Shown piece after piece: positions 51,968 to 55,700 of a DNA stretch of 64,000 nucleotides. The stretch spans positions 62,001 to 126,000 of the forward strand of contig CANHQJ010000011.1 in the NCBI GenBank assembly GCA_947462875.1. Reading direction: 5' to 3'. Source of the DNA: Verrucomicrobiia bacterium (GTDB taxonomy: Bacteria; Verrucomicrobiota; Verrucomicrobiia; Verrucomicrobiales; Akkermansiaceae). The notes beneath the pieces were generated by a model. That model did not search any database and was not told the origin of the DNA. It saw nothing but the letters and a program-made list of their open reading frames with translations. The translations under genes were made by a program, and so were the position numbers. How positions within the stretch are numbered: the first letter of the stretch is position 1; each line of letters begins with the position of its first letter.

Positions 51968-53248
51968 TCACTCCTCCGGCATGTCCGTTACCCAGCTATC
52001 CGCGACCACCGCATCGATCAATACCTGCGAGGGGTGGCTGGTCTCATCGCGATAGCGGATCCGCAGAGTCATCGGGCGGGAAGTCTGGTCGGATGCCAAA
52101 CGCACCGCGTCATTGACAGGCGAAGAGCGCTCGATGTAGCCGTGTACAACTTCATCGCTATGCGCGAAGGTGAGCCGGTAGGACTGCCATTCCAGCTCGC
52201 TGCTGTTAGGGAAATCGTAATTGTAATACGACACCATTTCCACGATCACACGCACTTCCGTTAGCTGGGTGGGTCTCTTTCTTTTGAGGGTCGCGATATC
52301 CATTTCACACCAACCGACCCAGCTTTCCCAGTCGACGCGGTAAGAGGTGCCGACCTGGATCAGGGTAAGGGTGCGCGTGGACTGATTCTGCAAGCGGACT
52401 TCGCATTGCATGACCCGATGACCGGCACTGAAACGCGAAGTGGACTTTTCGATGCTGTGGTAGTCCTGCATCTTGACAGGTTTGGATCGGTAGTAGTGGC
52501 GGACTTTTTCCTCAAGCCCTGCGACAGGGCGCAGTAACGGCATCAGGGTCTCGATGCTGTCGGTGGCGAAAAACTTCTCCATAACGGCATATCCCTGATT
52601 GAGTTGGGTCAAGTGCAGCATCGCCTGCGCATCGGATTTCGGTTTGCCAGAAGGAGGCAAGACCACGGGCGCGCTAACGATGGATGGCACTGTTGTGGAG
52701 GCTTGCTCTGGTTTCTCTTTCAGCAGCGCCACCATTACGGCAATGACGATCGATGCTCCCAAAGCCGCCGTTCCCCACCACCAGTAGATCGGTATGCGGC
52801 GGGAAAATCGCACCTTGCGTCCCCTCTCCTGCTGCCAGTCATTCTCCGCATCCTTGCTGCGGTCGCGGTGTTTTTTCCTGCGCCGCAACTGCCCACCCGG
52901 GACCTGTGCCGGAATCGAAGGGCGAGACTCATGCATGCTTGTCTCCGGCGGTACGGATGAATCCATCGCGCCGAGAGCCTCTGTCGCATCAGATTCGTCG
53001 ATAGGCGCGTATTCCTGCTGCGCTTCCGTAGTCTCGGCAGTGTCCGGTTGCTGCACCAGACCCGGAAGGGACTCGCCGGCGCGCGGGATTCGGAGCATGC
53101 GATCACAACAGGGGCACACCACTCCCTTGCCAGAGTAATCGGCGGGAATGCGGAAAATGCCACGACAATCCTGACAGACAAACGCATTCCAGCGGCGCTT
53201 GTCCGTTTGCTCTGATGCCGTCTGTGGCTCTGCGGGTGATGATGCCAT
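51968..53248 (-). CDS. Hypothetical zinc-ribbon membrane protein, paralogue of the 37465-38448 product
   Basis: 426 residues. N-terminal zinc ribbon (CQDCRGIFRIPADYSGKGVV, then CPCCDRMLRI), an acidic linker, a basic stretch, one membrane helix (about 160-180, YWWWGTAALGASIVIAVMVA), then a soluble domain (about 205-425). The soluble domain aligns by eye with the 37465-38448 protein at YRVDWESWVG, SYYNYDFPNSSELEW and GYIERSSP. Function unknown. It lies 7 bp upstream of nothing else on its strand and converges with the M16 gene, 13 bp apart. The PBP gene upstream ends 7 bp before its start, so the two may be co-transcribed. Confidence 0.65.
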   Translation of the reverse strand: MASSPAEPQTASEQTDKRRWNAFVCQDCRGIFRIPADYSGKGVVCPCCDRMLRIPRAGESLPGLVQQPDTAETTEAQQEYAPIDESDATEALGAMDSSVPPETSMHESRPSIPAQVPGGQLRRRKKHRDRSKDAENDWQQERGRKVRFSRRIPIYWWWGTAALGASIVIAVMVALLKEKPEQASTTVPSIVSAPVVLPPSGKPKSDAQAMLHLTQLNQGYAVMEKFFATDSIETLMPLLRPVAGLEEKVRHYYRSKPVKMQDYHSIEKSTSRFSAGHRVMQCEVRLQNQSTRTLTLIQVGTSYRVDWESWVGWCEMDIATLKRKRPTQLTEVRVIVEMVSYYNYDFPNSSELEWQSYRLTFAHSDEVVHGYIERSSPVNDAVRLASDQTSRPMTLRIRYRDETSHPSQVLIDAVVADSWVTDMPEE

Positions 53249-53255
53249 TCGCCAA

Positions 53256-55700
53256 TTATTCGATTTCAATTTCCAATTTCCCGGGAGGATTCAACGGCAG
53301 TTGCGCGGCCTCATCGCCCAGATCGAGGGCATCAAGACCGTTCTGGATGCTGCGGAAAAAAGCCCCTTCCTCCGCTTCGTCTTCCTCGGCGGTGCCCCCT
53401 TTCGGGATCTCCGCTTGATACGGATCAGTGCCGATGAGGAGCGGTTCTTTCGCCCGAACGGGAATGGCATCCAGCGCCGCGATGTCGTTGCCCGTGTCTC
53501 TGTGCGATCCGGCAAGTCCCGGAATGCCGGCGGCGTGGGCCGGGCATGTGGGGATGGATTCCGTGCCCGCGCGGAAAAATTCCTTCGTGCGCGCGTCCTT
53601 GAGCTTGGGCAAGCCGGTCTGCGGGTCGTTGCTGGTTTCGTAGCAATACTGGCTGGCGCGCTGGCCGCTCACACGGCAAATGTCGATCTCCACAATGCTG
53701 GCAGGTCGTCGGATTTCTCCCTGCAGGTAGGATTTCGGCAGTGCGTTCATCGCCGCTTTCCAAATCGGCAGTGCGATTTCCTTGCCAAACGCCCCTTCAT
53801 ACATCGCGGGTGAGCTGCCTTGCAAAAATCCGCACCACACTCCACATGCCACGCGGCTGCTATACCCCAAACTCCAGCAACCGGCGAAATCATGAGTCGT
53901 TCCCGTTTTGACAGCTCCCTGGAATGCGGGGTCCATGCCCGCCATGGCATTGCGCAAATTTCCGTCCTTGAGCGCGCCGCGCAGCATGTCGTGCACCTGA
54001 TACGCGCTAGCAGGATCCACCGCAGTGGTTCGTTTCGGCTCACGCGGCACCCGCTCCATCACCACGTGACCGCTGCTGTCTTCAATTTTATCCACATATA
54101 CCGCTTGCGCAGGACCCGTCTCGCCGCCACGCGCGAAACTGGCGATCGCGGAGACCGCCTGGGGCAGTGAGGCCGATTCCCAGCCCACCAGCATGCGCGG
54201 GAGTTTTTCGCTATCAGGGATCACGAAACCAAATCGCTTGATCCCTTCCGCCACGCGATCCAGTCCGACCTGCGAGCCAAAACGCACCATCGCCGCCACC
54301 TTTGACTGCTCCAGGGCGCGTCGCACGGGAATCAACCCTTGGTAGCGGGGATTCGGGATTTCCGCGCCCCACTCGCCGAGAATGCCCTCTCGTCCGCCCA
54401 CCATGATCATGCGGTTGTCCATCGGCTCATCCTCGACCATCGCCGCCGGAGTCAGCCCATTCGAAAATCCCGCTGCCACGATGAACGGAAAGAGCGCCGT
54501 GCCTAACGGTTTTTTCCCTTCCTCAATGAAATTGTATTGCGAGTGCGCGTAGTCGCGCCCGCCGACATAGGCCAGCACTTCTCCCGTTTCGTGATCCATC
54601 ATCAACACGGCTCCTTGCACGTAGGCCGGGGGCAGTGGCGATTTTTTGAAGTCCGCATATTTCGCATGAGGATAATTCGGCTGCGCTTCCACCGCTTTCA
54701 ATGACGCCAACACGGCTGCTTGTGCGGCGTCCTGGGCCTCCTTGATGATGGTGGTGCGAATGACGAAGCCTCCCTTGGCAAACGCATCCTCGCCGATCAG
54801 ATTGCGCGCCTCCGCCGCAATCAGTTCATAGACGTGACTCGTGCCGCGCTGCAGCGGGCGAGGATTGAGCACGACGGGCGAGCTGAGATACGTAGCCAGA
54901 TCCTTGCTGCTGATCATGCCTTCCTCACGCATGCGCCACAACACGTGATCGCGACCTCGTTTGTTCGCCGCCAGATCATTCAGCGGGCTGAGTTCGAAAG
55001 GATTGCGCAGGATCGTGACGATCGACGCGCATTCGGGAATCGTCAGTTCCGACGGCTCCTTGCCGTAGTAGCCCAGCGAGGCCGAGCGCAGGCCGTAGTA
55101 GCCGCTGCCGAGGAATGTGCGATTCACAAAAAAGCTGAGAATTTCCTGCTTGCTGTAGCGCTTCTCGATGCGCTGGGCCAGGAACATCTCGACGAACTTG
55201 CGCTGGAATCCCGACTCACCGCGTTTCTTCGCCTCCGCTTTCAGACTGTAGGCGTCACGTGCCAACTGCTGTGTGATCGTGCTCGCTCCCTGGGTGATTT
55301 TCCCCTCATTGGAAATGGTCTTCAAGCCCGCCCGCGCCACGCCGATGTAGTCCACGCCATCGTGCGTATCGAAACGACTGTCCTCTCCGGCTTTGAGCGC
55401 ATTGATGAAATTCTGCGGGATGTCCTGATAGGCCATCATGCTGCGGTTTTCCACGAAAATGCGCCCGATCTCTCTCCCCTCGCGATCCAGAATGATGCTG
55501 GGCACCTCGATGTCGTTGATGCGCTCCAGATCATAGGTCAAGGCGCGCTCGCGGTAGGGCTGGCTATAGTGCTCGAAGGACTTCCAGCCGACGATGCCCG
55601 TCACTGCGAAGAAAAGGAAAAATCCGATCCAAAAGCCTTTTCGCTTGTAGAATCGCTTTTTCCGACGCTTGTTTCTCCAACTGCTGTAGCCTTCCGCCAT
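53256..55700 (-). CDS. Class A PBP-like peptidoglycan glycosyltransferase with degenerate transpeptidase motifs
   Basis: 814 residues. A basic N-terminus and one membrane anchor (about 22-40) precede a GT51 glycosyltransferase domain with intact motifs: GEDSRFDTHDGVD (Glu106) and QGASTITQQLARD (137-149). The transpeptidase-like domain follows (about 350-640), but the usual GSAFKP motif is GTALFP (400-405), losing both Ser and Lys. The SxN position reads QSKVAA (Asn lost), while VKTGTTHDF (KTG, 598-600) is intact. A C-terminal ~170-residue extension is acidic at its end. It can probably polymerise glycan; crosslinking activity is doubtful. Start chosen at 55700, sharing a CATG with the divergent gene. 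Confidence 0.88.
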   Translation of the reverse strand: MAEGYSSWRNKRRKKRFYKRKGFWIGFFLFFAVTGIVGWKSFEHYSQPYRERALTYDLERINDIEVPSIILDREGREIGRIFVENRSMMAYQDIPQNFINALKAGEDSRFDTHDGVDYIGVARAGLKTISNEGKITQGASTITQQLARDAYSLKAEAKKRGESGFQRKFVEMFLAQRIEKRYSKQEILSFFVNRTFLGSGYYGLRSASLGYYGKEPSELTIPECASIVTILRNPFELSPLNDLAANKRGRDHVLWRMREEGMISSKDLATYLSSPVVLNPRPLQRGTSHVYELIAAEARNLIGEDAFAKGGFVIRTTIIKEAQDAAQAAVLASLKAVEAQPNYPHAKYADFKKSPLPPAYVQGAVLMMDHETGEVLAYVGGRDYAHSQYNFIEEGKKPLGTALFPFIVAAGFSNGLTPAAMVEDEPMDNRMIMVGGREGILGEWGAEIPNPRYQGLIPVRRALEQSKVAAMVRFGSQVGLDRVAEGIKRFGFVIPDSEKLPRMLVGWESASLPQAVSAIASFARGGETGPAQAVYVDKIEDSSGHVVMERVPREPKRTTAVDPASAYQVHDMLRGALKDGNLRNAMAGMDPAFQGAVKTGTTHDFAGCWSLGYSSRVACGVWCGFLQGSSPAMYEGAFGKEIALPIWKAAMNALPKSYLQGEIRRPASIVEIDICRVSGQRASQYCYETSNDPQTGLPKLKDARTKEFFRAGTESIPTCPAHAAGIPGLAGSHRDTGNDIAALDAIPVRAKEPLLIGTDPYQAEIPKGGTAEEDEAEEGAFFRSIQNGLDALDLGDEAAQLPLNPPGKLEIEIE

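Follow-up and report, generated by a model that had tools for sequence, protein, structure and literature searches.

Penicillin-binding proteins (PBPs) perform acyl transfer via the serine of their SxxK motif. Among the described systems, the PBP1A-type class A PBPs (TIGR02074; structures 3udf and 4oon) provide both the best NCBIfam match and the best structural neighbours of an 814-residue PBP encoded in a 64,000-nucleotide stretch of DNA (hereafter the window) from a Verrucomicrobiia bacterium of the family Akkermansiaceae (contig CANHQJ010000011.1, positions 62,001 to 126,000). The domain order, the GT51 glycosyltransferase motifs, the PBP fold and the KTGT motif are common to both. However, the 814-residue protein lacks the Ser and Lys of SxxK and the Asn of SxN, contains a clade-specific DNR...GILGEWG segment, and reaches 372.4 bits with the PBP_1a_fam model, below the curated cut-off of 508.75. 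Monofunctional glycosyltransferases (Mgt/MtgA, TIGR02070) are expected to resemble it in polymerising glycan without cross-linking, but the PBP of the window retains a full-length transpeptidase fold and stays at 74.5 bits with the Mgt model, where the cut-off is 182.65.

Laboratory mutants that combine an intact glycosyltransferase with an inactivated transpeptidase have been described for E. coli PBP1A (S473) and PBP1B (S510), pneumococcal PBP2a and C. difficile PBP1 (S487A). Polymerisation of lipid II persists when the transpeptidase serine of E. coli PBP1A or PBP1B is mutated, and pneumococcal class B PBPs cross-link the strands produced by a transpeptidase-dead class A PBP (PMC4632607). 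In C. difficile, septa are still made with transpeptidase-deficient PBP1, while growth needs its transpeptidase activity, and PBP3 promotes septum synthesis without its own catalysis (PMC12539705). Unlike in these mutants, the loss in the present protein is natural and fixed throughout a family, three residues are gone, and the domain has long co-evolved. Finally, a short type of class A PBP (L001 type, 550-650 aa) also combines an intact GT51 domain with a degenerate transpeptidase, with several GTPs in the same genomes, but it forms a separate clade nearer to the intact PBP1A-like paralogue and has lost most of the SxN region.

Searches of an open-access library revealed no account of a clade of the kind presented here, although a description elsewhere is possible. 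If the reading developed below is true, nature would have produced, across a whole family, the equivalent of the laboratory mutants, with the two activities of an enzyme known from textbooks as bifunctional permanently uncoupled. To label this protein or its relatives 'penicillin-binding protein 1A' would then be misleading.

Domains and active-site motifs

The 814-residue protein has the architecture of a class A PBP, with an N-terminal anchor, a GT51 domain and a transpeptidase-fold domain in one chain (Table 1), and both Pfam matches exceed their cut-offs (PF00912, 163 bits; PF00905, 59 bits). The initial annotation had read degenerate SxxK and SxN motifs, a retained KTGT and the catalytic Glu106 in a frame free of problems, and its coordinates, residues and reading frame all proved correct.

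Table 1. Features of the PBP gene, in positions of the window
Feature	Position	Strand	Basis
Class A PBP open reading frame, 814 aa, transpeptidase-dead active site	53256..55700	(-)	Open reading frame; Pfam; orthologues in 15/16 family genera
N-terminal transmembrane helix, residues 21-55	55536..55640	(-)	AlphaFold model helix and hydrophobic sequence
GT51 glycosyltransferase domain, residues 75-257	54930..55478	(-)	PF00912 match; catalytic residues invariant in 65 members
Codon of catalytic Glu106	55383..55385	(-)	Invariant 65/65
Transpeptidase-fold domain, residues 363-604 by Pfam	53889..54614	(-)	PF00905; similar in fold to PBP1a and PBP3 structures
Degenerate SxxK, GTALFP, G400-T401-A402-L403-F404-P405	54486..54503	(-)	Alignment and orthologues
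MDNR...GILGEWG (residues 427-445), signature of the clade, between SxxK and SxN	54366..54422	(-)	Near-invariant in clade
Degenerate SxN, S466-K467-V468	54297..54305	(-)	Motif scan and orthologues
KTGT kept, K598-T599-G600-T601	53898..53909	(-)	Motif scan and orthologues

In phmmer alignments the segment GTALFPF is placed opposite GSSFKPF of P. aeruginosa PBP1a (4oon) and GSTIKPF of A. baumannii PBP1a (3udf). From the set of residues that marks a bifunctional class A PBP, the protein has KTG and is without the Ser and Lys of SxxK and without SxN. Neither S-x-x-K nor S-x-N occurs anywhere in the 814 residues, so that a different Ser-x-x-Lys, which the initial annotation had named as the finding that would overturn its reading, cannot be placed in the active site. 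The glycosyltransferase half is intact, with E106, D107, Q145, K168, E171, K184 and N193 invariant among 65 members of the clade.

Conservation and history of the loss

All 145 genomes of the family that were searched give a match to the 814-residue PBP; the best match per genome is mostly a full-length orthologue, and in some genomes, such as G015, only a paralogue or a fragment. Orthologues could be read in 15 of the 16 genera, and named carriers include Luteolibacter marinus, L. pohnpeiensis, Haloferula rosea and H. luteola besides many Akkermansiaceae drafts. An alignment of homologues had been proposed in the initial annotation as a check of whether the loss is conserved, and this is the case in each of 140 non-redundant orthologues (identical or contained sequences removed, nothing more). 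The nucleophile position is Thr throughout, the SxxK Lys has given way to Phe, Leu, Tyr, His or Ile, and Ile, Val or Leu stands where SxN should have its Asn. The Ser of SxN is kept in 137/140 and the Lys of KTG in 138/140, Ser466-Lys467 is nearly invariant, and motif 3 has become KGG in 64/140. The Arg of DNR and two Gly of GILGEWG are each present in 140/140. In contrast, none of 14 intact PBP1A-like paralogues has lost the Ser, the Lys, the Asn or KTGT, and the DNR...GILGEWG segment is absent from intact paralogues.

A sequencing error or a decaying pseudogene is practically out of the question, since the frame is open, a single reading in all 140 orthologues excludes both error and chance, dN/dS is low (see below), and a divergent MidA-like methyltransferase gene adjoins the PBP gene in 78 of 80 named loci, a neighbourhood that also supports orthology.

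Two further observations concern the family. G015, a family member with a 96% complete genome, encodes a single GT51 protein, which is the intact PBP1A-like one, and an orthologue of the transpeptidase-dead PBP is absent from this genome, an apparent loss. In addition, further diverged paralogues of the transpeptidase-dead family (L230-L235, in G240, G147, G229, G185 and G011) show SxxK regions that are degenerate in other ways (GTTIAPF, GMAFSPL, GTAFLPL), and some of them share a genome with the main orthologue.

Beyond the family, the order was searched with a transpeptidase-domain profile (A1), and each of the 142 genomes covered gave a match, in a few cases a weak one. When 240 genomes sampled from the phylum were searched, scores of about 300 bits outside the order were reached only in three genomes (G260, G358 and G398), which represent two other families of the same class; the remaining, lower-scoring matches are in keeping with ordinary PBPs. 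In a maximum-likelihood tree the clade proteins form one group (SH-aLRT 99; 98.9 without the catalytic columns), apart from the PBP1A-like and PBP1C-like proteins. Among the 31 clade members outside the window's family, the SxN Asn is found in 23, the SxxK Lys in 7 and the Ser in 4. Genus g28 (L243-L245) has a complete SAFK/SKN/KTGT set, so loss does not define the entire clade, and L246, L247 and L223 read TAFK/SKN/KTGT. The states of living relatives thus comprise SAFK/SKN, TAFK/SKN, TAFT/GKN and TAFF/SKI, and with such intermediates at hand the route of loss is directly testable.

By parsimony, at least three changes are needed at the Ser, five at the Lys and eight at the Asn, counts that give no direction between Ser and Thr. 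Thr may have arisen once on the stem, followed by a reversion in g28, or Ser may have been lost repeatedly with g28 retaining the ancestral state; g28 sits on a long branch and is compatible with either history. The family's common ancestor was probably already transpeptidase-dead, a state attained in steps inside a clade that spans the order. Beyond what the initial annotation stated, the loss turns out to be of long standing, to extend across the clade and to have proceeded in steps, and is not a peculiarity of one genome. Found throughout an order that includes relatives of Akkermansia, the protein probably builds chains that other enzymes must cross-link.

These patterns also bear on whether the transpeptidase might still be catalytic with altered chemistry, using Thr401 as the nucleophile and Lys598 of KTG (or Lys467) as the base. 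The constant Thr and the nearly constant KTG Lys and SxN Ser would fit such an enzyme, and the TAFK/SKN/KTGT proteins could represent a Thr-based intermediate. However, the SxxK Lys and the SxN Asn have been replaced in every family member, motif 3 is down to KGG in a large share of them, and intact paralogues likewise have a Lys or Arg at the central position of SxN (SRN), so Lys467 is not a new base. A catalytic domain of this kind is quite improbable.

Fold, constraint and proposed role

The AlphaFold model of the protein has a mean pLDDT of 84.6, with values above 90 across most of the transpeptidase region. Structural comparison by VIA-align 2 retrieved A. baumannii PBP1a (3ue1_B; Z 43.4, rmsd 7.0 over 492 residues) and P. 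aeruginosa PBP1a (4oon; Z 41.8, rmsd 2.9 over 382 residues), and Foldseek also matches the model to PBP structures. The transpeptidase domain is therefore predicted to fold normally. Within the genus of the window's genome, the transpeptidase region has a dN/dS of 0.03-0.06, as estimated from three pairs with computable dS, two of which are near saturation. The glycosyltransferase domain is the best conserved part of the protein: across ten genera, the identities of the glycosyltransferase and transpeptidase domains are 62% and 50% in the transpeptidase-dead family, compared to 60% and 60% in the intact PBP1A-like paralogue, which suggests that the constraint on the dead domain is relaxed but far from lost. 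The corresponding values in the second transpeptidase-dead paralogue are 67% and 40%. A fold kept under purifying selection is what the 'scaffold or regulator' role put forward in the initial annotation predicts.

The 814-residue PBP is thus likely to be a membrane-anchored enzyme that only polymerises glycan, in which the transpeptidase fold is kept in a non-catalytic capacity and cross-linking is left to other enzymes. The GT51 domain, with its intact motifs, would polymerise lipid II. Given that the nucleophilic Ser and its Lys are missing, as is the Asn of SxN, the known mechanism would predict that both peptide cross-linking and acylation by beta-lactams are abolished, hence glycan polymerisation by these PBPs should be indifferent to beta-lactams. 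The strands would then be cross-linked by other enzymes, and the dead domain would serve as a structural or regulatory part. The acyl-transfer mechanism, together with the results on PBPs of E. coli, pneumococcus and C. difficile, makes a glycan-only role the likeliest. On the other side, the invariant Thr together with the near-invariant Ser466-Lys467 and KTG Lys could hint at a residual function of the site. The main text of a transposon study in V. spinosum does not feature class A PBPs.

As a special case of the glycan-only reading, the dead transpeptidase might act as a sensor, which by non-reactive binding of stem peptides (donor or acceptor) or of a class B PBP would switch the glycosyltransferase. 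The near-invariant DNR...GILGEWG segment between motifs 1 and 2 and the constraint on the domain are in line with a sensor, and C. difficile PBP3 (PMC12539705) sets a precedent for septum synthesis that does not depend on a protein's own catalysis. However, the signature is also found in the intact-site proteins L243-L245 and is therefore not specific to dead sites. It is conceivable, if rather doubtful, that such a module controls a beta-lactam-blind polymerase, and that in G004 and G017 (see below) the two functions have been fully split between proteins.

Other wall enzymes and neighbouring genes

The window's genome (97.7% complete) encodes four GT51 proteins. Besides the 814-residue PBP these are an intact PBP1A-like protein (SVFK/SRN/KTGT), an intact PBP1C-like protein (SLYK/SRN/KTGT) and a 573-residue protein with GTAFEPF and a shortened transpeptidase domain, so the survey for an intact class A PBP that the initial annotation had suggested yields two with intact motifs. 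Two SEDS proteins and three class B PBPs with intact motifs are also present. Furthermore, the genome has 11 matches to the YkuD (L,D-transpeptidase) domain, many for 4 Mb, and 3-3 cross-linking may accordingly be substantial.

In G004 and G017, two drafts of genus g5 (1.5-1.6 Mb, each 90% complete), the transpeptidase-dead protein is the only GT51 protein found, next to three class B PBPs with intact motifs and two SEDS proteins. Since the two drafts agree, an assembly gap is unlikely, though possible. In both, the transpeptidase domain of this protein is too diverged for detection by Pfam.

The additional GT51 proteins and the two SEDS proteins of the window's genome would leave room for a non-enzymatic scaffold, in which neither domain is catalytic and other synthases are organised. 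That reading is very unlikely in view of the GT51 catalytic residues, which are invariant in 65 members, of the superior conservation of the glycosyltransferase domain, and of G004 and G017, where no other GT51 protein was found.

The second transpeptidase-dead class A PBP family consists of L001 (G000:C1, near 246309-247289) and its relatives L262-L280, which read GTAFEPF or have other non-SxxK sequences, and in many genomes its gene adjoins that of the intact PBP1A-like protein. With respect to SEDS proteins, the genomes of group g3 (G028, G038, G047 and others) have one (FtsW/RodA) each, compared to two in most other genera tested, and the closed g3 genome G118 has none and a single class B PBP match, which may reflect an assembly gap. 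A replacement of the missing SEDS by the transpeptidase-dead protein in g3, as suggested by G118, does not hold, since a SEDS protein is present in the other g3 genomes tested.

Directly downstream of the PBP gene, a further minus-strand gene (51968-53248) probably starts with an ATG at 53248, 8 bases past the PBP stop. Its product has no match in Pfam and combines a transmembrane stretch and an outer part with an N-terminus that resembles a zinc ribbon (RRWNxFxCxxC...CPxC). Similar genes come after the PBP gene in 21 of 80 loci, and the arrangement suggests an operon partner of the PBP.
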